64,000 nucleotides of DNA from Aegicerativicinus sediminis. GTDB lineage: Bacteria; Bacteroidota; Bacteroidia; Flavobacteriales; Flavobacteriaceae. A program made the position numbers and the translations under genes. Where the stretch lies: the NCBI RefSeq assembly GCF_015476115.1, contig NZ_CP064295.1, positions 1,854,001 through 1,918,000 on the forward strand, read 5' to 3'. This document shows, piece after piece, positions 4,760 through 64,000 of the stretch; positions within the stretch are counted from its first letter, which is position 1, and every line of letters starts with the position of its first letter. The notes under the pieces are model-generated. The model saw only the letters and a program-made list of their open reading frames with translations, was not told the DNA's origin and did not search any database.

Positions 4760-4782
4760 TTAGGTTTTCTCAAATTACTGCC

Positions 4783-5355: not shown

Positions 5356-5381
5356 GAAAAAAAATAATCACCCATAACCAA

Positions 5382-5414
5382 GGAAAAGCCCATAGTTTTG
5401 CTATGGGCTTTTCC
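5382..5414 (+). terminator. intrinsic terminator after ssb
   Basis: A perfect 14-bp stem (GGAAAAGCCCATAG, 5 nt loop, CTATGGGCTTTTCC) is followed by ATTTTTATT. It can also serve the convergent CHRD gene in the other direction. Confidence 0.88.
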
Positions 5415-5478
5415 ATTTTTATTAAAACTCCTTCTTAAGGAAAAATCTAGTTAATTGTGATCTTTAAATTAATTAAAA

Positions 5479-6009
5479 TTAAAGTTGACCTCTTAATTCT
5501 CCACCTGGAATAGCGATTGTATGAACATTCACATAAATCATCCCATCCCTAATTTGGGTGGCGAGGTCAGAAATAGTCATTCCCGCTAAAACGCCTCTTA
5601 AATTGTCAGCGGTTATCATGCCCTCTGCAAGCACACCATTAAATACTCCATCCGGAGAGCCTGCGTACAGACCGGCAACAACACCACCATTGGATCCAGC
5701 TTCGGCCCAATGAAAATGCGAAGCTACCGGATTATCCAGGTTAGCCACAATTAATTTGTAGTAAACATATGATTCGTCCGGACTTATTTTAACTATAACT
5801 TGGCCTGTGGCTTGGGAGTCATTTGCAGGCACCTCATTTGATCCACTTAAGTGGGTTGTAAAATTAAATTTCATTCCCTTTTTCGCGTCTATTGTATTTT
5901 CAGCTGAAAATAAGGCACTTTCAGTTTGGTCAATCGGCTCGTTAGAACAGCCAAATAGGATCATAAGAAATCCTACAACCATCAACGGTAATACTAATTT
6001 GTTTTTCAT
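5479..6009 (-). CDS. CHRD-domain lipoprotein
   Basis: A 176-residue protein. The signal ends in the lipobox LFGC (Cys21). Residues 47-176 form one CHRD domain: the SGSNEVPANDSQATGQ opening, the ASHFHWAEAG His-containing strand, and the closing NVHTIAIPGGELRGQL. The domain was named from chordin; its bacterial role is unknown beyond an extracellular beta-sheet fold. The gene is monocistronic and convergent with ssb across the terminator. The 217 bp upstream holds no gene. Confidence 0.85.
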   Translation of the reverse strand: MKNKLVLPLMVVGFLMILFGCSNEPIDQTESALFSAENTIDAKKGMKFNFTTHLSGSNEVPANDSQATGQVIVKISPDESYVYYKLIVANLDNPVASHFHWAEAGSNGGVVAGLYAGSPDGVFNGVLAEGMITADNLRGVLAGMTISDLATQIRDGMIYVNVHTIAIPGGELRGQL

Positions 6010-6226
6010 AAAAATTGGATTAATTAATAACTTTTAAGTTGAAAATGAACTACATATGTGTTCATTCAACTTTTCATACATAAAACAATCTAAGTGAGCT
6101 AAATCCTGAAAATTTCGATGAACTACCTGTATCCTCGTGCATTTACAACCAATCTCCTTTAAAAAGGTAACTACTTGCTAAGAGACAATCCTAAATAAAT
6201 CAAATCCAGTTAAATACACATATATT
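6010..6226. other. intergenic region without visible gene
   Basis: AT-rich. It contains an imperfect inverted repeat, AAGTTGAAAATGAAC near 6032 with GTTCATTCAACTTTTC near 6059, which could be an operator or hairpin in the CHRD leader. Nothing else was recognised. Confidence 0.35.
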
Positions 6227-6766
6227 CTAGCCTTTATTAAGTAGAATAAATTGAAAATTGATTTCTACATCATTCGCTATTTTATTGGCTACAATTTTTG
6301 GAATAGTGATGTTGAAATCTTCTGGTTTAAGATTAAAGAGGCCTTGCATTGAAAACCCTCCATCCTTCTTCACTAAATCCACCGCAACACCTTCAATAGA
6401 TTTGGTAACCCCGTGGAATTCAATGTCTCCTTCCAAACGATAATTGCCTGATGCATTTTCCGAAGTCCAATCAACTATTTTTCCTTTGAATGAAGCTTTT
6501 GGATACTTGTTCGATTCTGCATAATTTTCATTGAAATGCTCTTCCATGAGAGCATTTTTGAAACGAAATCCTTTCACCAATACCAAAGCCGCCATTTCTC
6601 CCGTATCGGTATCTAAAATGGCGGTGGCAGTTGTGGAAGTGGCAGCAACTTCCTCAAAGGAAGGCACTGAAGCTTCAAAGCTAACGGTCCCACTTCGCGT
6701 AACATACTTTTGTGCAAAAAGGCATTGACCTATTAATAAGCTTAAAACAAAAACAAGATGTTTCAT
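6227..6766 (-). CDS. YceI family periplasmic protein
   Basis: A 179-residue protein. Signal peptide cleavage is expected after LFAQ (residue 19). The rest fits the YceI lipocalin-like beta-barrel: the opening SGTVSFEASVP, the FKNALMEEHFNENYAESNKYPKA segment and the late DIEFHGVTKS strand. YceI proteins bind long isoprenoid or amphiphilic lipids; in Bacteroidota they are often encoded with cytochromes. It is the last gene of a tight five-gene run (6227-8991; gaps of 1-11 nt) encoding a cytochrome, an outer-membrane barrel, a cupredoxin and an OB-fold protein, so a role in envelope electron transfer is plausible (inference). Confidence 0.88.
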   Translation of the reverse strand: MKHLVFVLSLLIGQCLFAQKYVTRSGTVSFEASVPSFEEVAATSTTATAILDTDTGEMAALVLVKGFRFKNALMEEHFNENYAESNKYPKASFKGKIVDWTSENASGNYRLEGDIEFHGVTKSIEGVAVDLVKKDGGFSMQGLFNLKPEDFNITIPKIVANKIANDVEINFQFILLNKG

Positions 6767-6769
6767 ACA

Positions 6770-7141
6770 TTATTCAATAAAACCACCATCTCTCCAGGCC
6801 TCAATTCTATCCCTAGAGGTTTGTGGCAACTGCGCTCCGTTAAATGGCATGGCATAACCTGCCTGAGTGCTATTTATTCGCTGTATTAGTTGGTTGTTTT
6901 CTACTGCGCTTTTTACTTGAGAATAGGTGGTCAAGGATACACTGGCACCATTGTTAGGGGTGCTTCCATGACAAGATACACAATTACTGCTCATTATAGG
7001 GGCAATATGAGTATTGTAAGTAATGGTCGTACTCCCAGGATCATTCCCGTTTCCTCCTGGGTCCGTAACATCATCCTCACTGTCACTAGAGCATGATAGA
7101 ATTAATAGGGATGTAAAAACTAAAAGAGATAACTTTTTCAT
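6770..7141 (-). CDS. monoheme c-type cytochrome lipoprotein
   Basis: A 123-residue protein. The signal ends at LILSCSS (Cys17, lipobox). A Gly/Asp-rich linker follows, then a single heme-binding CVSCH at about residues 55-59. A Met (YAMPFNG), about residue 96, is the likely sixth heme ligand. The fold is a short class-I-like cytochrome c, similar to the heme domains attached to surface proteins in Bacteroidota. It lies 3 nt upstream of yceI and in one operon with the cupredoxin gene, suggesting electron exchange between the two (inference). Confidence 0.86.
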   Translation of the reverse strand: MKKLSLLVFTSLLILSCSSDSEDDVTDPGGNGNDPGSTTITYNTHIAPIMSSNCVSCHGSTPNNGASVSLTTYSQVKSAVENNQLIQRINSTQAGYAMPFNGAQLPQTSRDRIEAWRDGGFIE

Positions 7142-7152
7142 AGCATTAAATT

Positions 7153-8004
7153 TTAAAAGGTTCTACTTAGATTAAAACCAAAATATATTATGCCTTCACC
7201 CCAGTCTCCCGAGGCTTGGCTTAAAAAATAATTGGTGTTCATAGGTTGTGCATTGGTAAAATGCATTTGGAAAACGTGTCCACCTGTTTCCAGGTCTAAT
7301 CCGATGGAAAAAGGATTTTTAAATGGTGATGAATCGGCACGGTTAAGATGCCAGCCATAATCCATATTCAAGGAAAAGCGTCTTCCCAATTTATAGCGTC
7401 CACCCACACCCAAGGCAAACTGTGAATTATCCTGTTCATTATTGGAAACATAATTGTCATGGAAATATGTGGGGATTATTTCCAAGGAAAGCTTATCGGT
7501 CATTTTTCGTGAAATAAGCAATTGTGTGGCATAACTTACCCGATGTTTAAATTCTAATCCGGGTAAATTATCTGTGTCATAATCCGTATTTATCATCAAA
7601 GAATTGTAACCGACGATGGTAACAGGAAATCCGTTTACTTTTTGACTTATAAGTCGATATTTTAAGGCACCCTCATAAATTTTTTGGTAAGAACTTCTAG
7701 ATACACTCACATTCAGCCATTCGGTTACTCCATAAACAAAATTTAAGCGTGTAACAGCATCGTCTAATCCAAAAAAGCTGTCGAATCCTCGATCGATACT
7801 TCCGAATCTGTGTGAAACAATAAAGGTTAATTCTTTGTGGGCTACCAGTTTAGTAGATTCAAAATTTACAATTTTAAGGCCTTTGAAAACCGCTATTACA
7901 TCCGTATCTGTTTCATCGGTATCAATTTCGTTTAAGAGGTCATCTTGAGCGTTGATAAAAAGAGGTACTAAAACTAAAAGAAAGAGAAATAGTAAATGTT
8001 TCAT
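7153..8004 (-). CDS. DUF5777 family outer-membrane beta-barrel protein
   Basis: A 283-residue protein with a signal peptide to about residue 19 (FINAQ) and then alternating amphipathic strands ending in the aromatic GFNLSRTF typical of an outer-membrane barrel C-terminus. The LTFIVSHRFGSIDRGFDSFFGLDDA block is characteristic of DUF5777. The family is repeatedly encoded beside YceI and c-type cytochrome genes. Its function is unknown; a channel or a scaffold for the exported redox proteins are possibilities. It is spaced 11 nt from the cytochrome gene and 1 nt from the cupredoxin gene. Confidence 0.82.
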   Translation of the reverse strand: MKHLLFLFLLVLVPLFINAQDDLLNEIDTDETDTDVIAVFKGLKIVNFESTKLVAHKELTFIVSHRFGSIDRGFDSFFGLDDAVTRLNFVYGVTEWLNVSVSRSSYQKIYEGALKYRLISQKVNGFPVTIVGYNSLMINTDYDTDNLPGLEFKHRVSYATQLLISRKMTDKLSLEIIPTYFHDNYVSNNEQDNSQFALGVGGRYKLGRRFSLNMDYGWHLNRADSSPFKNPFSIGLDLETGGHVFQMHFTNAQPMNTNYFLSQASGDWGEGIIYFGFNLSRTF

Positions 8005-8005
8005 A

Positions 8006-8593
8006 TTACTGTTTTATAAAGCGTTTGGTTTGGGTTAGATTGCCAGATTGGGCCTTTATAAAGTACAGCCCCTGCTGCCATTTAGAAATGTCAATGAGGA
8101 CATCATCTTCGACTAGTTCAAAACTAACCTGCATACGTTGTCCCATCACATTAAAACTCGTTAATGTTATATCTGTTAAGGTAGTTGGGAATTTAAGGGT
8201 TAAGAATTCGCGGGCAGGATTTTTTACAACCGTAAAGCCTATTAGGGCATTGTCATCAACACTTAATGCATTAGAAACAGTTATCACACCGTCCATACCA
8301 GGGTGAAATTCACATTCATAAGGATTTGCACCTTCCAAATTAAATGTTTTTGAATATTTAGAACCTTCACCTGTAAGGCTACCACTGTCGAAGGTTTCGG
8401 TAGATCCTGATTTATTGGTAACGGTATGGGGAAAGGTGTCATCCCAAATCCATTCTACTGTATCGCCAGTTTCAATGTCTAGACTGGCATCTTCGTCGTT
8501 AATGCCAATTTTCCATAATATTTGATAGGTAGTTTGGGCAGATATGATTTGTAGGGGGACTAAGAATAATAGAGCTAATACTAACTGTTTCAT
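8006..8593 (-). CDS. plastocyanin-like cupredoxin with T9SS C-terminal sorting domain
   Basis: A 195-residue protein. A signal peptide (to ISAQ, residue 20) is followed by a cupredoxin domain (about residues 22-107). The type I copper ligands are visible: His in FPHTV, then CEFHPGM, which provides Cys, His and Met. A short linker leads to a type A T9SS sorting domain (about 115-195), with the GFTVVKNPAREFLTLKFP opening and the GLYFIKAQSGN...KRFIKQ ending. The protein should be exported through the outer membrane and attached to the cell surface, giving a surface copper electron carrier. It lies in the YceI-cytochrome-DUF5777 operon. Confidence 0.88.
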   Translation of the reverse strand: MKQLVLALLFLVPLQIISAQTTYQILWKIGINDEDASLDIETGDTVEWIWDDTFPHTVTNKSGSTETFDSGSLTGEGSKYSKTFNLEGANPYECEFHPGMDGVITVSNALSVDDNALIGFTVVKNPAREFLTLKFPTTLTDITLTSFNVMGQRMQVSFELVEDDVLIDISKWQQGLYFIKAQSGNLTQTKRFIKQ

Positions 8594-8595
8594 TG

Positions 8596-8991
8596 CTAAA
8601 GGTCTTTATTGGTTATAACTGTACATTGGTCTAATTTTAATTCTCCAAGTAGGTCGTCAAAGCCAATTAATCTGCCTTTTATAGTTATACTAGTTCCTTT
8701 AGTAGTTTTAGATATTGATGGAGTCTGGTCAAATTCGCAGTAAATGTTGTTTTCAATTACTAAGGACTTTTCCTGTATGCCGGTTAATTCTCCCTGAATT
8801 TGAATGGTGTTATTGAGATATTTAAGTTCATTTTCTTTGGAATTGTTTTGAAATTCCTTAATCAGTTTTTCTGCCTCTATACTTAGGCTTGGTTTCTCCT
8901 CTGATATATTCCTGTGGTCTTGGTTGATATATAGATAGCCCAATACACCCAAAACACAAATGCTGATTATTAAGAGGATTAATTTTTTCAT
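8596..8991 (-). CDS. membrane-anchored OB-fold (tRNA_anti-like) protein
   Basis: A 131-residue protein. One N-terminal transmembrane anchor (residues 3-22) precedes a charged linker, then an OB-like domain (about 48-130) with the IQIQGELTGIQEKSLVIEN and ITIKGRLIGFDDLLGELKLDQC strands characteristic of the tRNA_anti-like family. Such domains occur in small envelope proteins of Bacteroidota, with no known nucleic-acid role. It is the first gene of the five-gene redox operon, and its leader (9018-9091) carries strong secondary structure. Confidence 0.78.
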   Translation of the reverse strand: MKKLILLIISICVLGVLGYLYINQDHRNISEEKPSLSIEAEKLIKEFQNNSKENELKYLNNTIQIQGELTGIQEKSLVIENNIYCEFDQTPSISKTTKGTSITIKGRLIGFDDLLGELKLDQCTVITNKDL

Positions 8992-51637: not shown

Positions 51638-53461
51638 TTAATTGAGCGTATATCGGGCACTTAAAATAACGTTGCCTTTCGGCATCGGTACAAGGTTCGT
51701 TTCTGAATACACTTCATTAAATAGGTTGTTTCCAATAAGTGAAAACTCAAAGCCTTTAACCGAAGCTGTAACTGAAGCATCGACCACTGTATAAGGATCT
51801 CCTACTGTTCGTTTGGCATGTTTTATTATTATACTTTGTCTTAAAAATGGCAAGAATTGGGTTCTAAAGGTAGTGGTGAATTGGTGTTTCAAAGAATTAA
51901 TGCTATATCTTGAAAAAGCGATATTTAGATCAGCAATTTCATCTTCAATATATGTATAGCCTAGCTCCAAGTTTTGTCTAAAATTATTTATTTTAAAACT
52001 GTAGTCTCCCGATAATTCAAGGCCCTTTGTATTTAAGGATCTTATATTAGTTGCCATCCACAGATCATCCTCATTTTCTTTTACATAATCTATGATGTTA
52101 TCACTATCTCGATTAAAAAACGCTGCATTTAAAAGCAAATTACCTGATGTAAATCTTATTCCTAATTCTTCTGCAATAGCGTCTTCTGGATCTAAATTTT
52201 CATTACCTAAAGTGGTAGGGTCGCTGTAATATAAATCTGTGTATGTTGGTATACGATAAGTGTAACCAACATTCGCATACAGGCGCCAATTCTCAGATAA
52301 TTTGTATCCCAAATCAATTCCTGGGAATACATGAAAATCGAAATCTGAAAAATAAGTGGCGGCAATACCAGGAATAATATCCAGTGTGTTATCGAATAAT
52401 TCAAATCGGTGTTCTAGAAAAAGTGTCCCCATAAATCGTTCCCTATTTCCTAGATTGTTGCTCGATAAGTAGATTTGGGCTAGATCAACTCCAAAACCTG
52501 TCGTCCCCAAACTGTTTTGATTTGAAGCATTGAGGTCTGCCCCAATTTTATTGCTAATGTGAAGGTTTCTATAAATTGAAGGATCTTGCCTTACAAAAAC
52601 GTATTCGTCCTGGTTACGTCTCCAATAAACCCTAGGTGACCAAGTCCATTTATCGCTTTTAAAGGTAGTCCCAAGCCCTACTAAACTTGCTTGGGTTTCT
52701 TCATATTGATCTCGGGCAGATGGTGATGCATAAAATCCGTTTGCACCAAATTTTCGCTCAGATAATGTTGCCAATAGTTGTATTGGTTGGCGGTCAGTAT
52801 TAAAGGTGCTTTTCAGAAAGTAATTCTGATTGTCAAAATCCGTATTAAACCGATAACCATTAGAAGTATTTCTCGAATAATGGACGATATGATTTGATGA
52901 ATTTAGGTGAGTCTGTGCAGTAATTTCAGTATTTAATTGGTCATAAGAACCTGAACTTAACTGTAAACTAACGGAACTTTTAGAGGTCTTTTTGGTAATT
53001 ATATTTACCGCACCTGTAAAAGCATTCTGTCCATACACTCTAGCAGCAGGTCCCTTTATAATTTCAATACGCTCAATTACATCTATGGGAAGCCCTAAGT
53101 TTAGAGTATGATGCCCCGTTTGGGGGTCTTCAACCTTAAAACCGTCTATAAGTAGGAGGGTTTGGTCAAATCCGCCTCCTCTAATATAAAGGTCCGCTTG
53201 CATTCCTGCCAAACCCCTTCTTCTAATATCTATACCTGCAAATTGTTGTAGAACCTCTGCAACTGAAATGGCAGCACTGTTTTTAATATCTTCAGAAGAA
53301 ATAATGGTAATTGTTCTTGAATTTTCTTTGAATGGTAGGTCAATACGAGTGGAGGAAATTACAATCGAATCTAAGTTTTGGGGTTCAATTTGTTGGGCTT
53401 CCGCCTTGTTAACAGTTAAATACCATCCGATTAAGGCGTATATTCCTATTTTTATCTTCAT
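51638..53461 (-). CDS. BtuB-like TonB-dependent receptor downstream of hypABC
   Basis: A 607-residue receptor with a signal peptide to about residue 22. The plug (about 30-155) includes SVAEVLQQFAGIDIRRRGLAGMQADLYIRGG and the ARVYGQNAFTGAVNI end; a short barrel follows, ending in GNVILSARYTLN. Length and plug resemble BtuB, which imports cobalamin. It lies 62 bp after hypC on the same strand. A TACCTTTG box (minus strand, 53481-53488) suggests its own promoter. Because nickel is needed by the hydrogenase, nickel-chelate import is a good hypothesis, but cobalamin or another metal complex is possible. Confidence 0.84.
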   Translation of the reverse strand: MKIKIGIYALIGWYLTVNKAEAQQIEPQNLDSIVISSTRIDLPFKENSRTITIISSEDIKNSAAISVAEVLQQFAGIDIRRRGLAGMQADLYIRGGGFDQTLLLIDGFKVEDPQTGHHTLNLGLPIDVIERIEIIKGPAARVYGQNAFTGAVNIITKKTSKSSVSLQLSSGSYDQLNTEITAQTHLNSSNHIVHYSRNTSNGYRFNTDFDNQNYFLKSTFNTDRQPIQLLATLSERKFGANGFYASPSARDQYEETQASLVGLGTTFKSDKWTWSPRVYWRRNQDEYVFVRQDPSIYRNLHISNKIGADLNASNQNSLGTTGFGVDLAQIYLSSNNLGNRERFMGTLFLEHRFELFDNTLDIIPGIAATYFSDFDFHVFPGIDLGYKLSENWRLYANVGYTYRIPTYTDLYYSDPTTLGNENLDPEDAIAEELGIRFTSGNLLLNAAFFNRDSDNIIDYVKENEDDLWMATNIRSLNTKGLELSGDYSFKINNFRQNLELGYTYIEDEIADLNIAFSRYSINSLKHQFTTTFRTQFLPFLRQSIIIKHAKRTVGDPYTVVDASVTASVKGFEFSLIGNNLFNEVYSETNLVPMPKGNVILSARYTLN

Positions 53462-53523: not shown

Positions 53524-53781
53524 CTATGACTCGGTATGGCTTAACTCGTCGAGCTCTCCTAGTTGTTTTAGAAGATCAAAAGTTTTTTTGGCCTCCTCTT
53601 CATCAACGATACTAATGGCAGCCCCAACATGAACCATAACATAATCATTTAATTTAGCTTCTGGAACCAATGTTAAGTTCACTTTTTTCAAAACACCATC
53701 AAAAGAAACTTTTCCAATTCGGAATTGATCATCTAGTTTTTCGGTTATCTCAATTAATTTTCCCGGAATAGATAAGCACAT
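53524..53781 (-). CDS. hypC: hydrogenase maturation chaperone HypC
   Basis: An 85-residue HypC. The N-terminal Cys in MCLSIPGK is the residue that holds the Fe(CN)2CO unit and contacts the hydrogenase large subunit; DYVMVHVGAAISIVDEEEA is the conserved strand. It is the last of hypA-hypB-hypC, 7 nt after hypB. Confidence 0.96.
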   Translation of the reverse strand: MCLSIPGKLIEITEKLDDQFRIGKVSFDGVLKKVNLTLVPEAKLNDYVMVHVGAAISIVDEEEAKKTFDLLKQLGELDELSHTES

Positions 53782-53788
53782 AATTGTT

Positions 53789-54670
53789 TTAATTTAGGTT
53801 TTCTTTTATCCAATTGTACCAAGATTCAGTGCCATCGCCTGTCGTAGCAGAAACCTCAAAGAATTTTAATTTTGGATTAACCTGTAATGCATACATCTTT
53901 AGTTTTTCCATATCAAAATTAAGATACGGAATAAGATCAATTTTGTTTATTAAACAAATGTGAGCAGAATAGAACATATCCGGGTATTTAATAGGTTTGT
54001 CTTCACCTTCAGTTGTACTAATAATAACCACCCGTTTGTTTTCCCCTAAATCGAACATGGACGGACAAACAAGATTGCCAACATTTTCTATCATTAAAAC
54101 GGAATCGTCCTTCATGTTTAATTGCTTGACCGCATCAAAAATCATGTCACTTTCCAAATGGCAACCTTTGCCAGTATTGATCTGTATAACAGGGACGTTT
54201 AAAGCATCTATTCTATTTGCATCATTAAATGTTTGTTGATCCCCCTCAATTACATAAAAAGGGATTTCATTTTTTAAATCTTGAAGTGTTCTTTCTAACA
54301 ATGTAGTTTTTCCACTTCCAGGAGAACTTACTAGATTTAACGCAAATATATTTTTAGCCTCAAAATATCCTCGATTTTTGGCAGCTTGTAATTGATTGTT
54401 TTGTAAAATATCCTGTTCAATATCAATTACCTTACTTTTTACCTCATGATGATGTGTATGGTGGTGGCCATGATTGTGATGTTCATGCTCGTGGTTATGA
54501 CTATGGTGGTGGTGATCATGATCATGATGATGGTGTCCATGGATATGATCATGGTCTTGACCGTGATTCCTATGATGATGATCAGAATGAAAATGATGAT
54601 GATGTTCAGAATTAGGTTTGCCTATTACAACGCCATTTTCGTTGGTTCCGCATCCGCAAGTGCCGCACAT
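53789..54670 (-). CDS. hypB: hydrogenase nickel-insertion GTPase HypB with long histidine-rich region
   Basis: A 293-residue HypB. The N-terminal MCGTCGCG is the high-affinity nickel site. Residues ~22-77 contain about 33 His, a nickel-buffering stretch. The SIMIBI GTPase domain follows (about 95-293): P-loop SSPGSGKTT, VIEGDQQT, the metal-binding GKGCHLESDM, MIENVGNLVCP and the guanine-specifying NKIDL. It hydrolyses GTP to drive nickel delivery to the large subunit with HypA. It is coupled to hypA (12 nt gap). Confidence 0.96.
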   Translation of the reverse strand: MCGTCGCGTNENGVVIGKPNSEHHHHFHSDHHHRNHGQDHDHIHGHHHHDHDHHHHSHNHEHEHHNHGHHHTHHHEVKSKVIDIEQDILQNNQLQAAKNRGYFEAKNIFALNLVSSPGSGKTTLLERTLQDLKNEIPFYVIEGDQQTFNDANRIDALNVPVIQINTGKGCHLESDMIFDAVKQLNMKDDSVLMIENVGNLVCPSMFDLGENKRVVIISTTEGEDKPIKYPDMFYSAHICLINKIDLIPYLNFDMEKLKMYALQVNPKLKFFEVSATTGDGTESWYNWIKENLN

Positions 54671-54682: not shown

Positions 54683-55024
54683 TTAATTAACTTCTAAAGA
54701 TTTAACTCTCAATTCTTTTCCCTGCGTAATGCCTTTTAAAGAGCTTTTGCATTTTGGGCAGGAGTCGTAAATTTTTTGGATCTCGAAATCGCAGTTGCAA
54801 TCTAAACAAATCGCTTTCCCTTGAATTAAATGAATATTTTTAATTGCAAATTCTAATATGGTATTTTTTACAGCCGCGGGCCAAACAAATTCCAAAGAAT
54901 CTAATTCAATTCCAGCGAGAGTTCCAATTTCCAAATCTATAGACTCAACGGTATTTGCATTTGCCTTTTTGGTTTCTTCTTCGGCAATTCTTACAATTCC
55001 TAATGCCACGGATAATTCATGCAC
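54683..55024 (-). CDS. hypA: hydrogenase nickel metallochaperone HypA
   Basis: A 113-residue HypA. N-terminal MHELSVA with His2 is the nickel ligand; the zinc site is two pairs, CLDCNC and CPKCKS, near residues 74 and 92. It delivers nickel together with HypB. It is the first gene of the leftward hyp operon and divergent from the hydrogenase structural genes across 142 bp. Confidence 0.95.
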   Translation of the reverse strand: MHELSVALGIVRIAEEETKKANANTVESIDLEIGTLAGIELDSLEFVWPAAVKNTILEFAIKNIHLIQGKAICLDCNCDFEIQKIYDSCPKCKSSLKGITQGKELRVKSLEVN

Positions 55025-55166
55025 AATTAATGGTCTTTAAGATGGAGTTTAAAGATAATCAGGGCTTTACGCAAATTGTATGATATAAGTCATGTTTTGT
55101 CTAATGGTGGTTACCTACATTTATTAGGCTTTGGAACTTCGATAATAACTAATCAATATTAATTAT
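55025..55166. promoter_or_regulatory. divergent promoter region between hypA and hyaA
   Basis: This 142 bp region separates the two hydrogenase operons and should carry both promoters. The best candidates are weak: TATCTTTA on the minus strand (55057-55050) and TTAGGCTTTG (55124-55133) on the plus strand. I saw no clear activator operator. Confidence 0.5.
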
Positions 55167-56297
55167 ATGGAAAATGTAAAACCAATTAAGGGTACATATT
55201 ACGATAGCATAATTAAGGAAGGTTATAGCCGTAGAGATTTCATGAAATTTACTGCCTTTATTGCTGCTTATATGGGGCTTGAATCTTCTATGATTGCGCA
55301 AGTTGCCCAAGCTTTAGAAACGACCAAGAGGTTACCCGTAATTTGGGAGCATTTTCAGGAGTGTACTTGTTGTAGTGAGTCCTTCATTCGATCTAATCAC
55401 CCAATTGTAGCCGATATAATTCTAGATAAAATTTCTCTGGATTATACTTTAACCCTAATGGCCGCATCTGGCCATCAAGCTGAAGCAGCAAAGCATGACA
55501 CAATGAAAAAACATCATGGAGAGTATATTCTCTGTGTGGAAGGTTCCGTGCCTATGGGAGCTGATGGTAATTATTGTTGTATAGGAGGAAGGTCTGCTAA
55601 AGATATTTTAGTTGAAGCAGCCGAAGGAGCGAAAGCTATTATTGCTTGGGGTAGTTGTGCCTCAAATGGTTGCGTTCAATCAGCAAAACCAAATCCTACT
55701 GATGCCACACCCATACATAAAATAATTAAAAACAAACCAATAATTCGGGTTCCTGGATGTCCACCAATAGGAGAGGTAATGGCTGGCATTATAGTTCATT
55801 TGGTAGCCTTTGGCCGTGTTCCTGAATTGGATAGGCAAGGAAGACCAAAGGCGTTTTATGCGAAACGTGTGCACGATAGTTGTTACCGCAGGCCTTATTA
55901 CGATGCAGGTTTGTTTGCTGAATCTTTTGATGACCAAAATGCTAAAAATGGTTATTGCTTGTATAAGGTTGGTTGTAAAGGCCCGGTTACTTATAACTCG
56001 TGCGGAATAATAAAATGGAATGGCGGAGTTAGTTACCCAATACAGTCTGGTCATGGTTGTATAGGATGTAGTGAAGATGGTTTCTGGGATAATGGAGATT
56101 TCTATGAGCGACTCACTGGTATTCCCGGTGTAAAGGGAGAATCCACCGCTGATCAATTTGGTAAAGTGGCAGCTGGTGTATTGGCAGGCGGTATCGCTGC
56201 ACATGCTATCGGAGCAACTATATCCAAACGGCGCCAAATAAAGGATGAAACGGAGAAAGGAAAAATAAATGAGATGAATCTAGACTCGGAAAATTAA
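55167..56297 (+). CDS. hyaA: [NiFe]-hydrogenase small subunit, oxygen-tolerant type
   Basis: A 376-residue small subunit. The Tat signal SRRDFMK spans residues 21-27. The proximal-cluster ligands are Cys66, Cys68, Cys69 (ECTCC), Cys164, Cys169 (GSCASNGC) and Cys198 (VPGCPP). With a constant offset of 49 these equal Cys17, 19, 20, 115, 120 and 149 of E. coli Hyd-1. Both extra cysteines (68 and 169) are therefore present, the mark of the [4Fe-3S] cluster of O2-tolerant membrane-bound enzymes. The medial and distal cluster ligands follow (HDSCYRR, YCLYKVGCKG, GHGCIGCSE). A C-terminal hydrophobic helix (about 331-350) anchors it. It passes electrons from the large subunit to HyaC and lies 6 nt before hyaB. 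Confidence 0.96.
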   Translation: MENVKPIKGTYYDSIIKEGYSRRDFMKFTAFIAAYMGLESSMIAQVAQALETTKRLPVIWEHFQECTCCSESFIRSNHPIVADIILDKISLDYTLTLMAASGHQAEAAKHDTMKKHHGEYILCVEGSVPMGADGNYCCIGGRSAKDILVEAAEGAKAIIAWGSCASNGCVQSAKPNPTDATPIHKIIKNKPIIRVPGCPPIGEVMAGIIVHLVAFGRVPELDRQGRPKAFYAKRVHDSCYRRPYYDAGLFAESFDDQNAKNGYCLYKVGCKGPVTYNSCGIIKWNGGVSYPIQSGHGCIGCSEDGFWDNGDFYERLTGIPGVKGESTADQFGKVAAGVLAGGIAAHAIGATISKRRQIKDETEKGKINEMNLDSEN

Positions 56298-56303: not shown

Positions 56304-58034
56304 ATGGCAAATAGAATCGTTGTTGACCCTGTAACTCGAATTGAGGGTCATTTAAGAATAGAAGCAGAGATAAAAGACGGAAAAATTGTAGATGCCTTTA
56401 GTTCCAGTACTATGGTTCGGGGTATTGAAAATATCGTTAAAGGAAGAGATCCAAGGAATGTTTGGGCTTTTGTACAACGAACCTGTGGTGTATGTACCAC
56501 GGTTCATGCCTTGGCATCGGTAAGGGCTGTAGAAGATTCCCTTGGTATCGTAATTCCGCCGAATGCAGAATTGGTGAGGAACATTATGGAAGGGGCTCTT
56601 TATATGCACGACCATACCGTACATTTCTACCATTTGCATGCTTTGGACTGGGTAGACGTAGTTAATGCGTTAAGTGCAGATCCTAAAAAAACGTCAGAGT
56701 TGGCTCAAAGTATATCTAGCTGGCCTAAAAGCTCACCTGGATATTTTAGCGACATTCAAAATAGGATTAAAAAATTTGTAGAAAGCGGTCAGTTAGGAAT
56801 ATTTGCTAACGGCTACTGGGGTCACCCTCAAATGAAACTTCCAGCGGAGGTTAATTTACTTGGGGTAGCACATTACCTTGAAGCTCTTGAGTGGCAAAAG
56901 GAAATTGTAAAAATCCACACCATATTTGGCGGAAAAAATCCACACCCTAATTATTTAGTTGGAGGTATGGCCTGTGCTATTAATACCGAAAACCCAGGTG
57001 GATTGACCGCTGAAAGATTGGCGATGGTAGGACAATTGCTGAAGAATGGACAAGAGTTTATTGAACAAGTTTATATACCCGATTTATTGGCAATTGCTTC
57101 ATTTTATAAAGATTGGGGAGCTATAGGCCAAGGTTTTGGTAATTATATGTCTTATGGAGATTTTCCGGTTAATGGTTATGGAGATATTTCTAGCTATAAA
57201 TTTCAACCAGGTATAATACTAAATAGAGATTTATCCAAAGTACATGAGGTTAACCATAGGAATGCTGATATTGAAGAATTTATCAATAATTCTTGGTATG
57301 ATTATGAGGAAGGCGATGCTGTTGGAAAACATCCTTGGGAAGGTCAGACTAATATCAATTACAGTGGTCCCCAACCTCCATACGATTTTTTAGATGTGGA
57401 AAGCAAATATAGTTTTATTAAAACTCCTCGATGGAAGGGTATGCCAATGGAGGTTGGTCCATTATCTAGGCTTTTGGTTGGTTATGCAAGTGGAAGTAAG
57501 GAGATTCAAGATGCTGTAAATGGAGCACTTGCACATTTAGGGATACCTGTTGATACTCTTTTCTCGACCTTAGGAAGGACTGCTGCGAGGGGTATTGAAA
57601 CACAATTGGTGGCTAACTGGACAAGAGGGTTTTACGATTCTCTGATGAACAATATTAAAAATGGTGACGAAAGAATGGCTAATACTGAACTTTGGGAGCC
57701 AGATTCATGGCCTGCAGAATCAAAAGGTGTTGGATGGATGGAAGCCCCAAGGGGGTCATTAGCCCATTGGATTAAAATAAAGGATGGTAAAACTGAAAAC
57801 TACCAACAAGTGGTTCCAACCACCTGGAATGCTTCACCAAGAGATGCTAAAGGACAGAGATCTGCCTATGAATCTGCTTTAATTGGTACTCCCGTTGCGG
57901 ATCCTGAATTGCCATTGGAGATAATTAGAACCATCCATTCATTCGACCCTTGTTTAGCGTGCGCGGTTCATTTGTATGACGAACATGGAAACCATATATC
58001 TAAGGTAAGTAATGTAGGAAGTTGTGAAATCTAA
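56304..58034 (+). CDS. hyaB: [NiFe]-hydrogenase large subunit
   Basis: A 576-residue catalytic subunit. The N-terminal RTCGVCTTVHALASVRAVE contains the first active-site Cys pair, and DPCLACAVH the second, so all four Ni/Fe ligands are present. The RIEGHLRIE and GNYMSYGDFP motifs are also typical of group 1 enzymes. About 20 residues follow the final His and should be cut off by HyaD after nickel insertion. It oxidises H2 on the periplasmic side. It lies between hyaA and hyaC with 6 and 10 nt gaps. Confidence 0.97.
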   Translation: MANRIVVDPVTRIEGHLRIEAEIKDGKIVDAFSSSTMVRGIENIVKGRDPRNVWAFVQRTCGVCTTVHALASVRAVEDSLGIVIPPNAELVRNIMEGALYMHDHTVHFYHLHALDWVDVVNALSADPKKTSELAQSISSWPKSSPGYFSDIQNRIKKFVESGQLGIFANGYWGHPQMKLPAEVNLLGVAHYLEALEWQKEIVKIHTIFGGKNPHPNYLVGGMACAINTENPGGLTAERLAMVGQLLKNGQEFIEQVYIPDLLAIASFYKDWGAIGQGFGNYMSYGDFPVNGYGDISSYKFQPGIILNRDLSKVHEVNHRNADIEEFINNSWYDYEEGDAVGKHPWEGQTNINYSGPQPPYDFLDVESKYSFIKTPRWKGMPMEVGPLSRLLVGYASGSKEIQDAVNGALAHLGIPVDTLFSTLGRTAARGIETQLVANWTRGFYDSLMNNIKNGDERMANTELWEPDSWPAESKGVGWMEAPRGSLAHWIKIKDGKTENYQQVVPTTWNASPRDAKGQRSAYESALIGTPVADPELPLEIIRTIHSFDPCLACAVHLYDEHGNHISKVSNVGSCEI

Positions 58035-58044: not shown

Positions 58045-58785
58045 ATGAAAACTAGAAATTTTAAAAGGGTTTTAGTTTGGGAGCTTCCGGTTAGGATATT
58101 TCATTGGTTAAATGTTTTGGCGCTTTTTGTATTAACCGTGACAGGTTTTTTAATTGCCGATCCGCCTGCACTTCTTTCTAATGCAGAGGCAACCAATCTT
58201 CACACTTTCGGTATTGTTAGATCTATTCATTTCATTTCGGCTTATGTCTTCTTTTTTGTAATGATATTAAGGATTTATTGGGCATTTGTGGGAAATAAAT
58301 TTGCCAATTGGAGAGCATTTTGGCCATTTACAAAAAGACATTGGGCCAATCTCAAACATGTTTTAAAGGTGGATATTATGCTATTGAATGATGAAGAGGA
58401 GAATATTAGGAATATAAGTATTGGCCATAACACAATTGCAACTTTAAGTTATATAGCCATGTTCTTTTTAGCCTTAGTAATGGTATTTACAGGTTTTGGA
58501 TTGTATGCTGGAATGTCAAGTTGGTGGTTGCCTCGATTATTTATTTGGGTGCCAGATATGTTGGGTGGTGATATACTTACCAGACAAATCCATCATATTA
58601 GTATGTGGGCATTTATCTTTTTTGCCATGGTGCATGTGTATCTGGTATTTTACCATGATTGGCTTGAGGGAAGAGGTGAGGTGTCATCTATGTTTGGGGG
58701 CTATAAATTTGTATGTGAAGATCGAATGAAAAAACCTGAAAAGGTTAAGAGCGATAAAAATAAAGCGGCAGTACCCGCTGATTAA
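58045..58785 (+). CDS. hyaC: hydrogenase diheme cytochrome b subunit
   Basis: A 246-residue four-helix cytochrome b of the Ni/Fe-hydrogenase type. Heme ligand His are visible at VRIFHWLNVLALF, in helix 2 (RSIHFISAYVFFFVM) and in the last helix (IHHISMWAFIFFAMVHVYLVFYHDWLEGRGE). It anchors the small subunit and transfers electrons to the quinone pool. It is followed by a hairpin (58803-58848) before hyaD. Confidence 0.94.
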   Translation: MKTRNFKRVLVWELPVRIFHWLNVLALFVLTVTGFLIADPPALLSNAEATNLHTFGIVRSIHFISAYVFFFVMILRIYWAFVGNKFANWRAFWPFTKRHWANLKHVLKVDIMLLNDEEENIRNISIGHNTIATLSYIAMFFLALVMVFTGFGLYAGMSSWWLPRLFIWVPDMLGGDILTRQIHHISMWAFIFFAMVHVYLVFYHDWLEGRGEVSSMFGGYKFVCEDRMKKPEKVKSDKNKAAVPAD

Positions 58786-58863: not shown

Positions 58864-59397
58864 ATGAAAGAATTAGAAGGAAGTTTAGTAGCTGTAAGTA
58901 GCGATGCCTATTATTTTGAAAATGATAAATCTAATTCGATACTCATTTTAGGAGTTGGAAATTATTTAATGGGGGATGAGGGCGTTGGCGTGCATTTGAT
59001 TCAGCATTTTTCAAAGTTTAATTTACCCGATTATATTGATATTCTTGATGGGGGTACGGGAGGTTTTTTGCTTCTAGATTGTTTTAAGGCCTATCCGTCA
59101 ATCATTTTTGTTGATGCTACTATGGATGGAAAGCCCGCAGGTACAATTTCGTTATTGCGTCCTAAATTCGCTTCCGATTTTCCTTCCGCACTGAGTGTCC
59201 ATGATGTTGGTCTTAAAGATATGATTGAGGCGGTATATCTCATGGAGGAAGTTCCCGATGTTTATCTATTCACGATTTCCATAAAAGAAATGATTCCAAT
59301 GACGGTGGAATTAAGTCCCGAAGTTGAAATGGCAATTCCAGAATTGATCGATCAAATTTTGGAGCTTTCCAAAAAACTTAAATTTCAAAAAACTTAA
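58864..59397 (+). CDS. hyaD: hydrogenase maturation endopeptidase
   Basis: A 177-residue protease of the HyaD/HoxM family that removes the C-terminal tail of the large subunit once nickel is in place. GVGNYLMGDEGVGVHL provides the Glu of the nickel-recognition site; the Asp in FVDATMDG and the His in SVHDVGLKDM complete it. It has about 26 extra residues at the N-terminus before the ILILGVGN strand, compared with the usual form. Confidence 0.92.
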   Translation: MKELEGSLVAVSSDAYYFENDKSNSILILGVGNYLMGDEGVGVHLIQHFSKFNLPDYIDILDGGTGGFLLLDCFKAYPSIIFVDATMDGKPAGTISLLRPKFASDFPSALSVHDVGLKDMIEAVYLMEEVPDVYLFTISIKEMIPMTVELSPEVEMAIPELIDQILELSKKLKFQKT

Positions 59398-59424: not shown

Positions 59425-61683
59425 ATGCTTAAAACGTTTCAAATTTTAATCTCTGGACAAGTTCAGGGTGTTGGTTTTCGTCCTTATGTTTTTGCACTTG
59501 CTAAAGACAATAATCTGAAGGGTGAAGTTTCAAATAATGAAACAGGTGTGATAATTATAGTTTCCGGCACACCCGTTGATTTGGAAGCGTTTTGTAATCA
59601 ACTCACAAAAAACCCTCCTCCAGTTTCAATAATTGAACAATTCCATTCAGAGGAAATAGAATTTCAGGAATTTGAAGATTTCAGAATTATACCGTCAAAG
59701 ACCAAAAGTAATTTAAGTCTAAGATTGACCCCCGATTTTGCTATATGTGAAGCGTGTTCATTTGAAATTCAAAATGCTGAAGACAGGCGTTACCAATATG
59801 CATTTACAACCTGTGTTAATTGTGGCCCGCGTTGGTCGGTCACAAAAAAGTTTCCATTTGAAAGAGAACATACATCAATTGCAGAATTTGTAATGTGTAA
59901 AACTTGTCTAACCGAATATAAGGACCCCTCAGATAGGAGATTTCATTCGCAAACCAATACTTGTGGTGATTGTGGAATTAGTTTGCAGCTATTAGATTCA
60001 CAGGGGAAAAATTTAAACAAAAGTCAACAGCATATTTTTGAATCTATTGGCCAGTATTTGAAAGAGGGGAAGATTGTAGCTGTTAAAAACACTAGCGGAT
60101 ATCTTTTGTGTTGCAATGCAGAAAATGAAAATGCTGTTGCAAAATTGAGGAAATTAAAAAAGCGCCCTACGAAACCATTTGCATTATTATTTCCCAATTT
60201 AAAACATCTCAAAGGTGAATTTTCACTTTCCCCAAATCAGGAAGAATTCCTAAAATCTAAGGAACGACCAATTGTTATAATACCAGTTGAAAATTATTTT
60301 GGCAGAATTGCTCTCAACCAAATTGCTCCAGGCTTAAAACAATTGGGAGTTATGGTGCCCTATACAGGAATATTGGAATTGTTAGGAGAATCTATCACTT
60401 TTCCGATCGTGGCGACCAGCGGAAACATACATGGGTCCCCAATTTTGAGCGATTCGAATGACGCATTGGAAAAACTAGGTTCTGTCGCGGATTATTTTTT
60501 GCAACACGACCTACATATTGAGCATCCTCAAGATGACAGTGTTATAAAGCTTAGCTTTCAAAATAAAATTCCGATTTTATTTAGGAGATCAAGGGGATAT
60601 GCACCTAATTTTTTTACAAATGTTAAAGTTGCTGAAACTAAAATATTGGCAATGGGAGCAGATTTAAAAAATAGTTTTGCGTTTATGCCAAATGAATATG
60701 TATATGTGAGCCAATATCTGGGTAACCTAGAAAATTTTGATGTTTACCAGCGGTTTATAACGGAAATTAAATCATTTACCACAATTTTCAATCAAATTCC
60801 GGAGACTATTGTAATAGATAAACACCCAAGATATTTTAGTTGCCAATTGGGTAAAGAATTGGCAATTACCTATAATTCTAAACTCATTGAAGTACAACAT
60901 CACAAGGCTCATTTCGCTTCGGTATTGGGAGAACATAATTTATTTCAAGAAAAAGAAAAAATATTAGGGGTTGTATGGGATGGTGTTGGCTTTGGTGATG
61001 ATGGTGAGGTTTGGGGTGGTGAGTTTTTTGATTTTCAGAATGGATTTATAAATAGGATAAATCACTTTGAATATTTTGAATGGTTGGCAGGTGATAAAAT
61101 GTCTAAAGAACCTCGATTATCATTGTTTTCACTTTTAAAAAATGACGAGATTATTAAACATAAATTTTCTAACGAGGAGTTTTCAGTTTATAGGAAATTA
61201 AAGAAAATAAATAAATTGAAAACCTCGTCCGTAGGTCGTTTGTTTGATGCGGTTGCATCCTTACTTAACATTTGTGATTATAATTCATTTGAAGGCGAAG
61301 CAGCAATTTTGCTAGAGAATAACGTCTCGAATTTAAAAATGCCTGAGCCTAGAACTTATTATAAGATTGAACCTACTGAGCCCATACAAATAGGTCTAAT
61401 ATTAGATGAAATAACCAAAGATTTTGAAAGGGGTATTGAGGTTTCAGTGATTCTTTTCAATTTTATTTTCACATTAGCGACAATAATAGTTGATTTTGCA
61501 AAACAGAATGATTATACCATAGTGTGTTGTTCAGGCGGTGTATTTCAAAACACAACACTTATAGATATTCTGATCGACATAAAACCTGATGACCTCCAAT
61601 TATGTTTCAATAAACATTTGCCGCCAAATGATGAAAATATTTCATTCGGACAATTAATGTATGTTGTAAATTGTAAACTGTAG
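59425..61683 (+). CDS. hypF: carbamoyltransferase HypF
   Basis: A 752-residue HypF, which makes the thiocarbamate precursor of the cyanide ligands with HypE. Domains: acylphosphatase (about 1-90, ISGQVQGVGFRPYVFA), two zinc fingers (~107-185, with CEACSF, CVNCGPRW, CKTCLTEY, CGDCG), a YrdC-like domain (~200-390, KKRPTKPFALLFPNL) and a Kae1-like carbamoyltransferase (~405-752, HHKAHFASVLGEH, VWDGVGFGDDGEVWGGEF). All parts are intact. Confidence 0.96.
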   Translation: MLKTFQILISGQVQGVGFRPYVFALAKDNNLKGEVSNNETGVIIIVSGTPVDLEAFCNQLTKNPPPVSIIEQFHSEEIEFQEFEDFRIIPSKTKSNLSLRLTPDFAICEACSFEIQNAEDRRYQYAFTTCVNCGPRWSVTKKFPFEREHTSIAEFVMCKTCLTEYKDPSDRRFHSQTNTCGDCGISLQLLDSQGKNLNKSQQHIFESIGQYLKEGKIVAVKNTSGYLLCCNAENENAVAKLRKLKKRPTKPFALLFPNLKHLKGEFSLSPNQEEFLKSKERPIVIIPVENYFGRIALNQIAPGLKQLGVMVPYTGILELLGESITFPIVATSGNIHGSPILSDSNDALEKLGSVADYFLQHDLHIEHPQDDSVIKLSFQNKIPILFRRSRGYAPNFFTNVKVAETKILAMGADLKNSFAFMPNEYVYVSQYLGNLENFDVYQRFITEIKSFTTIFNQIPETIVIDKHPRYFSCQLGKELAITYNSKLIEVQHHKAHFASVLGEHNLFQEKEKILGVVWDGVGFGDDGEVWGGEFFDFQNGFINRINHFEYFEWLAGDKMSKEPRLSLFSLLKNDEIIKHKFSNEEFSVYRKLKKINKLKTSSVGRLFDAVASLLNICDYNSFEGEAAILLENNVSNLKMPEPRTYYKIEPTEPIQIGLILDEITKDFERGIEVSVILFNFIFTLATIIVDFAKQNDYTIVCCSGGVFQNTTLIDILIDIKPDDLQLCFNKHLPPNDENISFGQLMYVVNCKL

Positions 61684-61685: not shown

Positions 61686-62780
61686 ATGAAGTATTTAGAG
61701 GAATATAGAAACTTAGAGGCAACTAACCAATATTTAAGCCTAATCGCTAATAAGGTTACCAAGCCATGGAATATAATGGAGATTTGTGGTGGGCAGACAC
61801 ACAGTTTGGTGAGGAATGGTATTTTAGAGTTGTTACCGAAGCAGGTTCAGATGATCCATGGTCCGGGTTGTCCGGTTTGTGTGACTCCCGTAAGCTTAAT
61901 AGATAAAGCCATTGAATTACTGGAAAAAGGTGTAATTGTTTGTTCTTTTGGAGATATGATTCGTGTCCCTGGAACAAAAAAAAGTCTCTTAGAGGCAAAG
62001 GCGGAAGGAGCTGATCTCCGAGTGCTTTACTCTCCTTTAGAGGCAGTTGAAGTTGCCAAAGCAAACCCAAATAGAGAAGTGGTGTTTTTTGCTGTCGGAT
62101 TTGAGACGACTGCGCCTGCAAATGCAATTTCGGTATTACACGCCGAAAAGGAAGGCTTAAAGAACTATTCAATTTTGGTCTCACATGTATTAGTGCCACC
62201 TGCAATGGAAGCCATTTTGGACGATGAATTTTGTAACATTGATGCATTCCTTGGAGCCGGCCATGTATGTGCGATAATGGGTTATAAAGAATACATGCCG
62301 ATAAGTGAAAAGTATAAAATTCCCATTGTAATTACAGGGTTTGAGCCATTGGATTTGGTTCAAGGAATTTATATGGCGGTATCACAATTAGAGGCAAACG
62401 AATATACTGTAGAAAACCAATACGCTCGTGTTGTAAAAAAGGAAGGGAATATAGCAGCCAAGGAAGTAATTAGTAAAGTGTTCAGGGTAGGAGATAGGGA
62501 ATGGCGTGGAATTGGAAAAATACCCAATAGTGGCTACTTAATTTCAGAAGAATACAAGGCGTTTGATGCCGGAATAAAATTTCAAATTATTGGGAATGAT
62601 AATGTTTTACATACTAAATGTATAGCAGGAGAAATATTGAAGGGTTTAAAAAAGCCATACCAATGCCCTGCTTTTGGAAAGGAATGCAATCCAACTAATC
62701 CCTTAGGGGCTCCCATGGTGTCTTCAGAGGGCGCTTGTGCTGCCTACTATCATTTTTCAGTGGATGAAAATGTGTTATAA
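61686..62780 (+). CDS. hypD: hydrogenase maturation factor HypD
   Basis: A 364-residue HypD, an Fe-S protein on which the Fe(CN)2CO group is built with HypC. Conserved cysteines: CGGQTHSL, GPGCPVCVTP and the C-terminal CPAFGKECNPTNPLGAP...EGACAAYY cluster ligands. It lies 2 nt after hypF, and its stop overlaps the hypE start by one base. Confidence 0.96.
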   Translation: MKYLEEYRNLEATNQYLSLIANKVTKPWNIMEICGGQTHSLVRNGILELLPKQVQMIHGPGCPVCVTPVSLIDKAIELLEKGVIVCSFGDMIRVPGTKKSLLEAKAEGADLRVLYSPLEAVEVAKANPNREVVFFAVGFETTAPANAISVLHAEKEGLKNYSILVSHVLVPPAMEAILDDEFCNIDAFLGAGHVCAIMGYKEYMPISEKYKIPIVITGFEPLDLVQGIYMAVSQLEANEYTVENQYARVVKKEGNIAAKEVISKVFRVGDREWRGIGKIPNSGYLISEEYKAFDAGIKFQIIGNDNVLHTKCIAGEILKGLKKPYQCPAFGKECNPTNPLGAPMVSSEGACAAYYHFSVDENVL

Positions 62781-63793
62781 TGAGTAAAGAAGACATAATT
62801 AATCTAGGTCATGGAAGCGGGGGATCGATGACTCGAACTTTGCTTGACGATGTCATTTTTAAAACTTTCAGCAACCCCTTGCTTAACCAAAAACACGATG
62901 GTTCCATTTTGGAATTAAAAGGGAAAATTGCTATTTCAACAGATAGCTTTGTTGTTTCTCCGATTTTTTTTAGAGGAGGAAATATTGGAGAACTTGCGGT
63001 TAACGGAACTGTAAATGATGTTGCTATGTGTGGTGCCCAACCAAAATATTTGAGTTTAGCTTTTATTGTTGAAGAGGGACTTAAGATAGAAGAATTTATT
63101 GCTATTGTTAATTCAATTAAGGCCACCGCTGATCGATGTGGTGTTGAAATAGTTACTGGTGATACAAAAGTTGTGGAACGTGGTAAAGGCGATAAGATTT
63201 TTATTAATACAACTGGTGTTGGGGTAATTCATCCTAAAGCGAATATTTCTATGGAGCGAATAAAAGTTGGGGATAAAATAATAATAAATGGAAATATTGC
63301 TCAGCATGGGATGGCCATAATGTCTCAAAGAGAGGGTTTAGAGTTTGAAAGTGATATAGTTAGTGACACTGCCAATCTAAATTATATCGCAAACGAATTG
63401 CTAGATCAATTTGGAGATGACGTTCATTTGTTCAGAGATGCAACTAGAGGTGGCGTTGCTAGTGTATTGTCAGAAATTGCATTAGATACCGGCAAGGGGG
63501 TTTATATTGAAGAGAAAAATTTGCCAATAGATAAGCAGGTTTCTGCTGCATGTGAAATTTTGGGTCTAGATCCACTATATGTCGCCAACGAGGGTGTTTT
63601 CCTGGCAGTTGTAGATCAATCTGTTGCAACTGAAGTATTAAGGCAAATGCAAACTAATCAAAATGCAAAAAATTCAATGTGCATTGGAGAAATAACTCAA
63701 TCAAATTCTAAGAAGGTTGTGATGGAGAGTGTAATTGGAGGAAAACGTATCGTTACCCCTTTAATCGGAGAACAGTTGCCAAGAATCTGTTAA
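62780..63793 (+). CDS. hypE: hydrogenase maturation factor HypE
   Basis: A 337-residue PurM-like ATPase that dehydrates the HypF-made carbamoyl group on its C-terminal Cys to a thiocyanate. The C-terminus is PRIC, with Cys337 as the acceptor; GHGSGGSMTRTLLDD and FRDATRGGVASVLSE are the conserved ATP/metal-binding segments. It is the last gene of the run. It converges on the partial membrane gene, sharing bases of the stop codons. Confidence 0.97.
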   Translation: MSKEDIINLGHGSGGSMTRTLLDDVIFKTFSNPLLNQKHDGSILELKGKIAISTDSFVVSPIFFRGGNIGELAVNGTVNDVAMCGAQPKYLSLAFIVEEGLKIEEFIAIVNSIKATADRCGVEIVTGDTKVVERGKGDKIFINTTGVGVIHPKANISMERIKVGDKIIINGNIAQHGMAIMSQREGLEFESDIVSDTANLNYIANELLDQFGDDVHLFRDATRGGVASVLSEIALDTGKGVYIEEKNLPIDKQVSAACEILGLDPLYVANEGVFLAVVDQSVATEVLRQMQTNQNAKNSMCIGEITQSNSKKVVMESVIGGKRIVTPLIGEQLPRIC

Positions 63794-64000
63794 AAGGAAA
63801 AAAACCAATAAACACCTATAATAATAGCTAATAATCCGGCAGCTAATCGAATTCCATTAAAAAATGTCTCGTTTTGTGAATTGGCAGAATAACCTGAAAT
63901 ATTCCCAACGACATAGGCAAAAGTAGTCATGGCGAGCAAGGTGCCAAATGCGAAACCGAGGATATAGGTAATGGAATCAGTATATCTTGTAAAACCTAAT
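63790..64000 (-). CDS. membrane permease-like protein, N-terminus cut by window edge
   Basis: The last ~69 codons of a membrane protein are visible, in frame from 63999 to a TAA at 63792-63790. Two hydrophobic helices are seen (YILGFAFGTLLAMTTFAYVVG and IRLAAGLLAIIIGVYWFF). The pattern resembles the C-terminus of UreH/TauE-like nickel/cobalt permeases, which often accompany hyp genes, but the fragment is too short to be sure. A metal transporter for the hydrogenase is the most likely role (inference). Confidence 0.55.
   Translation of the reverse strand, partial: LGFTRYTDSITYILGFAFGTLLAMTTFAYVVGNISGYSANSQNETFFNGIRLAAGLLAIIIGVYWFFSF

Follow-up and report, generated by a model that had tools for sequence, protein, structure and literature searches.

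In this study we analysed a stretch of 64,000 nucleotides of the Aegicerativicinus sediminis genome (the window) that encodes a [NiFe] hydrogenase with six cysteines at its proximal-cluster site. We consider it likely that this enzyme, of the group 1d kind, sits at the membrane and takes up H2 for respiration; it would be activated together with the cbb3 oxidase by an FNR-like regulator as oxygen falls and would not serve primarily in fully aerated water. New here are the palindrome and the -7 plan that the hydrogenase promoter has in common with cbb3, and a flavobacterial lineage of the enzyme with four cysteines. With a 1d enzyme spread through the Flavobacteriaceae under a cbb3-like promoter plan, experimenters know which oxygen level to try, and the four-cysteine sister lineage offers a natural test of what the six-cysteine cluster is for.

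The enzyme, its gene cluster and its class

The small-subunit frame is open over 376 amino acids and has an N-terminal SRRDFMK, which we take to be a Tat motif. It matches TIGR00391 (hydA) with 483.7 bits (cut-off 179.5). Among solved structures in the PDB Cupriavidus HoxK came first (458 bits), followed by E. coli Hyd-1 (429 bits), HydA (3myr, 339 bits), and Hyd-2 and Desulfovibrio-type enzymes (270 bits or less). An earlier reading made from the sequence alone had placed a [NiFe] hydrogenase at these coordinates and had matched six of its cysteines to the ligands of E. coli Hyd-1, including both supernumerary ones; both points were borne out. In an alignment with HyaA, HoxK and HybO, C66, C68, C69, C164, C169 and C198 fall into the six-cysteine columns of HyaA and HoxK, whereas HybO has glycine in both supernumerary columns. 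The numbering is offset from HoxK by 49, so that C68 corresponds to HoxK C19 and C169 to HoxK C120, the pair described as supernumerary in PMC10583674.

Table 1. Hydrogenase genes and promoter elements in the window
Feature	Position	Strand	Basis
hypC	53524..53781	-	profile match
hypB, His-rich N-terminal stretch	53789..54670	-	profile match, sequence
hypA	54683..55024	-	profile match
FNR/Crp-type palindrome TGATATAAGTCA, divergent hypA/small-subunit promoter	55081..55092	.	class TGAYN4RTCA
putative -7 element TACATTTA, 35 bp past palindrome start	55116..55123	+	one letter off TAnnTTTG
[NiFe]-hydrogenase small subunit, six-Cys proximal-cluster site (C66,68,69,164,169,198)	55167..56297	+	alignment, TIGR00391
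[NiFe]-hydrogenase large subunit	56304..58034	+	RxCGxC and DPCxxC ligand motifs, His214
b-type cytochrome subunit (HyaC/HoxZ-like)	58045..58785	+	TIGR02125 over cut-off, conserved histidines
hydrogenase maturation protease (HyaD/HybD-like)	58864..59397	+	profile match
hypF	59425..61683	+	profile match
hypD-like	61686..62780	+	similarity to annotated hypD of L063, gene order
hypE-like	62780..63793	+	similarity to L063 annotation, gene order
nickel-permease-like gene, end only, runs past window (L032:14791-15501)	63790..64000	-	weak HMM, below cut-offs; conserved neighbour

The neighbouring genes (Table 1) complete a hydrogenase cluster. The large subunit has the motifs RTCGVCTTVH and DPCLACAVH, its His214 corresponds to HyaB His229, and the cytochrome b partner matches TIGR02125 with 160 bits (cut-off 121.5). 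The order hypCBA (minus strand), small subunit, large subunit, cytochrome b, protease, hypF, hypD, hypE is kept in 20 of the 24 six-cysteine loci of the family sample, two of the four exceptions being short contigs, and the nickel permease lies alongside in 19 of 24. Neither HoxO/Q/R/T/V-like nor HyaE/F-like proteins were found near the cluster at E 1e-6. It is very unlikely that the cluster is a dormant relic no longer used in H2 metabolism. Hydrogenase genes need not mean activity, since the marine flavobacterium Robiginitalea biformata, which has a 1l hydrogenase, is described in PMC10305171 as taking up no substantial H2 in culture, and a genus-mate (G001) has no 1d cluster. In the window, however, all genes are open and full-length, the ligands are intact and the promoter is conserved.

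Several further genes were noted around the cluster. A BtuB-like TonB receptor (51638-53461) adjoins hypC; a conserved role for it in nickel uptake was rejected, as it is absent beside the cluster in all relative loci examined (E 1e-6). Thirteen relatives (L033 at 3843-8832, L034, L038, L048, L049, L050, L053, L056, L058, L059, L071, L074 and L079) have a large-subunit-like ORF between hypB and hypA or just past hypA, which the window genome lacks. We rejected a HupK-type scaffold as its identity, because in L033, the only annotated case, it lies within a HoxFUYH-like, NAD-linked (3d-type) hydrogenase module. Genes of glycerol catabolism (glpD, glpK, sometimes an aquaporin) occur about 10 kb or less from the hydrogenase cluster in several different arrangements: in the window genome (L032:15587-18752), in L041/L075 and L077, on the Parabacteroides plasmid L063 and, as glpD only, in L099. 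In the window genome a palindrome of the promoter-box class lies between the permease and glpD.

By its phylogeny the enzyme belongs with group 1d. In a tree of both subunits the query stands on one side with HoxKG, HyaAB and three other proteobacterial six-cysteine enzymes (SH-aLRT 98), opposite the four-cysteine rows of HybC, Azospirillum, Alteromonas and Sulfobacillus. The placement was also examined on the large subunit by itself, with HybC as outgroup. The query's clade of 51 rows (support 99) includes Phaeodactylibacter and Kryptoniota rows, which are kin of HydDB 1d enzymes and not identical sequences. A 1h/1l enzyme was rejected: HofK scores 69.5 bits against 458 for HoxK, and the small subunit has six cysteines, not four. 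Together with the six cysteines, the cytochrome b and the terminal oxidases present in the genome, this placement agrees with the sequence-only reading, which had proposed an oxygen-tolerant [NiFe] hydrogenase in a flavobacterium and a comparison with groups 1d, 1h and 1l. Our sequence analysis thus supports a membrane-bound H2-uptake hydrogenase of the O2-tolerant, group 1d-like type.

The window genome is a single contig of 4.09 Mb. PF00374 finds one gene there, the large subunit itself, and no second [NiFe] large subunit. Two COX1 genes lie over the cut-off, one of them the fused ccoNO of the cbb3 type, and no RuBisCO was found (controls were positive in 5 of 14). Since there are one [NiFe] large subunit, two haem-copper oxidases and no RuBisCO, the host looks like a heterotroph that lacks a Calvin cycle but can draw on H2 as an additional electron source.

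The promoter plan and its candidate regulator

Class II activators of the FNR/Crp type have sites centred near -41. Such a place is predicted for the palindrome of the divergent promoter, together with the transcription start, because a -7-like element follows 35 bp on. The -7 box of flavobacteria is TAnnTTTG (PMC9723704). A first regular expression, TTGA-N6-TCAA, matched none of 75 promoters (0.65 when shuffled). Of the flavobacterial six-cysteine loci, 31 of 40 have the class TGAYN4RTCA before the small subunit (null mean 0.75, highest of 200 runs 3); so do 6 of 10 four-cysteine loci (null 0.26, highest 2) and, among the remaining loci, 24 of 56 (null 1.4, maximum 5). This search covered up to 330 bp upstream of the twin-arginine codons, used first-order Markov nulls, and included the 106 of 110 loci with enough upstream DNA, a few of which repeat one genome. 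The box is absent from 9 of the 40 flavobacterial six-cysteine promoters and 4 of the 10 four-cysteine promoters, which counts against a shared low-oxygen switch.

Because the short core was defined on these same promoters, the count partly measures its own selection. As the box had first been seen there, it was tested at other promoters, and the cbb3 test and the -7 spacing are more independent evidence. Within 1.6-1.7 kb upstream of cbb3 the box was found in 22 of 23 six-cysteine genomes (null 2.4, highest of 300 runs 8) and in 5 of 6 four-cysteine genomes (null 0.6, but highest of 300 also 5). Only G181 and G371 have no cbb3 box, and neither of them has the hydrogenase box. Upstream of an aa3-like COX1 it occurred in 2 of the 10 genomes taken (null 1.4) and before the permease in only 6 of 33 (null 0.6); it was not found before hypF (0/41), hypD (0/38), the protease (0/41) or cytochrome b (0/42). 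The spacing is likewise common to both promoters. Among 41 chosen flavobacterial and kindred loci, 34 have the hydrogenase box, and TAnnTTT lies at +33 to +37 from its start in 25 of them (null 1.8), at exactly 35 in 23; for cbb3 the figures are 21 of 27 promoters (null 1.1) and 18. Over the whole window genome there are 44 matches to ATGAYN4RTCAT and 17 to the reversed pattern. Its boxes at L180:1982, 3923 and 6406 precede a universal-stress-protein-like gene, a P-type ATPase gene (ccoI-like by its place) and ccoNO, and since the first two accompany ccoNO they suggest a wider low-oxygen regulon in this genome.

A candidate for the regulator lies nearby. An FNR-like gene is found 0.4 kb from the ccoI-like gene that precedes ccoNO, and 17 of 20 relatives have a homologue (44-62% identical) upstream of their cbb3 genes. 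The other three count against this candidate: two show no homologue in the region examined, and the third has a distant match (31%) that lacks the cysteines. All 17 homologues have cysteines at FNR positions 20, 23 and 122 and at their own position 61. FNR position 29, the third FNR cysteine, is Asn in 16 of them and Ser in one; in the window genome it is Asn. The best NCBI family of the protein is Fnr, below its cut-off (99.5 against 228 bits). Judging from these residues, the protein may plausibly sense oxygen through an Fe-S cluster one of whose ligands has shifted. G371 has neither the regulator nor the box at either promoter; G199 lacks the regulator, yet both of its boxes are present.

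It is rather unlikely that the palindrome is instead bound by a Crp-like or nitrogen-oxide-sensing family member, with carbon, NO or nitrate and not oxygen as the signal for the hydrogenase. The sites of Crp, FNR and DNR are alike, the window genome has three Crp-type proteins over the Pfam cut-off, and carbon sensing has been predicted for a Flavobacteriales Crp/FNR homologue (PMC8510549). However, in the window genome boxes lie ahead of both ccoNO and the P-type ATPase gene that comes before ccoNO, and in 17 of the 20 relatives the neighbour of cbb3 is an FNR-like gene whose cysteines are conserved.

Because the promoter plan is common to the high-affinity cbb3 oxidase, usually found near the FNR-like regulator, the hydrogenase is probably induced at low oxygen. 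In Flavobacterium psychrophilum cbb3 is strongly induced under O2 limitation (PMC9723704). In the mechanism that we propose, the FNR-like regulator would bind the palindrome near -41 and activate the hydrogenase genes, together with cbb3, as oxygen falls. The exported enzyme would split H2, for example from fermenting neighbours, and the electrons would pass through a [4Fe-3S]-type relay to cytochrome b, quinone and cbb3, so that H2 oxidation might supplement heterotrophic growth. The six-cysteine site would keep the enzyme working where H2 and some O2 occur together, in a micro-oxic or fluctuating zone, guarding it against swings in O2. This mechanism fits with group 1d genes and transcripts being highest in hypoxic seawater (PMC10305171). 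In the literature searched we found no paper that connects a hydrogenase of flavobacteria with FNR and cbb3.

Distribution, aerobic life and the four-cysteine lineage

A small-subunit match of some kind was found in 47 of 397 Flavobacteriaceae genomes and a relative at 60% identity or more in 30 of 397, the window genome included. A scan of named genomes confirmed at least 593 relatives; the best 80 of these are mostly Bacteroidota by title, with Maribacter, Flagellimonas and Allomuricauda foremost and Yeosuana and Robiginitalea marina near the top. Such named hosts of related enzymes (Maribacter, Yeosuana, Robiginitalea, Flagellimonas) make a marine origin of the window genome's host likely. 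Published records point the same way as these counts: the Bacteroidetes member Phaeodactylibacter xiamenensis is listed as 1d in HydDB (PMC5037454), the CFB group held only six-cysteine enzymes in a 2015 survey with a set of 177 enzymes (PMC4486115), and hydrogen-using Flavobacteriaceae MAGs have been described (PMC8443593). Consumption of H2 by marine bacteria is now known (PMC10305171), and parts of that paper discuss Bacteroidota for 1l and 2a enzymes. Hence, by its sequence and relatives, the enzyme adds nothing unusual to a class already known and frequent in the family, and the idea that it would be unexpected in marine flavobacteria is not supported. A Parabacteroides distasonis plasmid of 57.7 kb (L063, NZ_OY725764.1) carries a complete six-cysteine hydrogenase cluster, which is why the enzyme may move between strains. 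L105, labelled Comamonas, is probably a mis-binned contig: its large subunit is almost the same as the one in L099, whose title reads Bacteroidetes bacterium.

Could the enzyme oxidise H2 in air, either constitutively or when the cell starves, and so provide extra energy in oxic seawater? We regard this as unlikely. It would agree with the six-cysteine site and with the second, aa3-like COX1 in all 24 six-cysteine genomes of the family sample, classed by frame length and E-value only. However, the promoter plan is common to cbb3, the box at the aa3-like COX1 hardly exceeds its null, and group 1d abundance and expression peak in hypoxic waters according to PMC10305171. All six cysteines are, moreover, encoded on the P. 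distasonis plasmid and in Dysgonomonas and Tannerella rows. Parabacteroides, Dysgonomonas and Tannerella are gut anaerobes. Six cysteines alone therefore do not imply aerobic H2 oxidation, as had been argued from the sequence at first; as far as sequences tell, they are the mark of a tolerant enzyme, not of an aerobic habit. With box and spacing pointing to low-oxygen expression, that claim should be replaced by the testable hypothesis of H2 oxidation at low oxygen.

The six-cysteine site is not found in all flavobacteria. The 116 small-subunit rows, which include the query twice and retain near-duplicates, split into 103 with CCCCCC and 13 with CGCCGC; there are no intermediates. The 13 comprise HybO, the enzyme of the genus-mate and 11 rows from flavobacteria, of which L057 and L106 come from one genome. 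The 80 named loci are biased at position 68, where one of two search patterns admitted only C or G; the 30 loci of the family sample are free of this bias and again show two states, 24 with six cysteines and 6 with four. In the large-subunit tree (109 rows, three short ones dropped), made from a subunit that lacks the trait itself, the four-cysteine rows for which there is a large subunit, 10 in number, group as a single clade (SH-aLRT 100) nested within the six-cysteine Bacteroidota. Other residues changed as well: W161F is found in 11 of 11 four-cysteine rows and A165S and H296Y in 10 of 11, whereas W161, A165 and H296 are kept in 102 of 102 six-cysteine rows. Forcing all six-cysteine enzymes into one clade cost 3.9 log-likelihood units (AU p 0.384) with 67 rows, the large subunit and one distant outgroup, and 40 units (AU p 0.066) with both subunits, four outgroups and 60 rows, which held 47 of the 102 six-cysteine and 9 of the 11 four-cysteine rows; when the longest outgroup was removed (59 rows) the cost was 29 units (AU p 0.094). 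Glycine at both extra cysteines in this one lineage is thus probably a natural reversal, the direction of which is not formally proven. Four-cysteine enzymes within a six-cysteine group have a precedent in four Firmicutes enzymes (PMC4486115). A narrow literature search on the proximal cluster gave no titles on the four-cysteine flavobacterial group.

The aa3-like COX1, classed by frame length and by eye from E-values in genomes of which several are incomplete, is found in 2 of the 6 four-cysteine family genomes, against 24 of 24 with six cysteines. A strong link between losing the extra cysteines and losing this oxidase was nevertheless rejected: it is absent in 3 of 13 further six-cysteine genomes, and of five further four-cysteine genomes two have it, one (G371, a repeat) lacks it and two hold fragments only. 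A more far-reaching reading, to which we give slightly less than an even chance, joins these strands. In it the Bacteroidota FNR-like regulator, with four conserved cysteines in a rearranged setting (its own C12, C15, C61 and C114), would be a class II activator switching the six-cysteine hydrogenase and cbb3 as one low-oxygen H2-respiration unit, and one flavobacterial lineage would since have undone the O2-tolerant cluster (C68G, C169G, W161F and other pocket changes), and would thereby mirror in nature the C19G/C120G variant made in the laboratory.

Comparison with known systems

The group 1d membrane-bound hydrogenase of Cupriavidus necator (HoxKGZ) shares the six-cysteine proximal cluster, the large-subunit ligands, the cytochrome b and the protease, and its HoxK is from 56% (alignment) to 60% identical, the latter over 86% of the protein. 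Unlike it, the flavobacterial cluster has no HoxOQRTV-like genes nearby, its hypCBA genes are divergent and its promoter bears an FNR/Crp-type box. Escherichia coli Hyd-1 (HyaABC) has the same six cysteines position by position, but identity is 52% and hyaE/hyaF-like genes were not found near the flavobacterial cluster. The 1l/1h-type enzymes of flavobacteria (Robiginitalea biformata and the genus-mate G001) are likewise of the H2-uptake type, but separate: the G001 small subunit is nearest to HofK, has four cysteines and is 40% identical to the query over a part and 26% overall. In G001 (L002:1099-2256; L051) this HofK-like small subunit is followed by several ORFs of about 100 amino acids with hydrophobic starts. 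From the Bacteroidota group 1d enzymes we saw no essential difference: the query falls into a clade with a Phaeodactylibacter row, the genus of the HydDB entry P. xiamenensis, and the cluster order is the same in close kin; relatives occur in Maribacter, Yeosuana and Robiginitalea marina.
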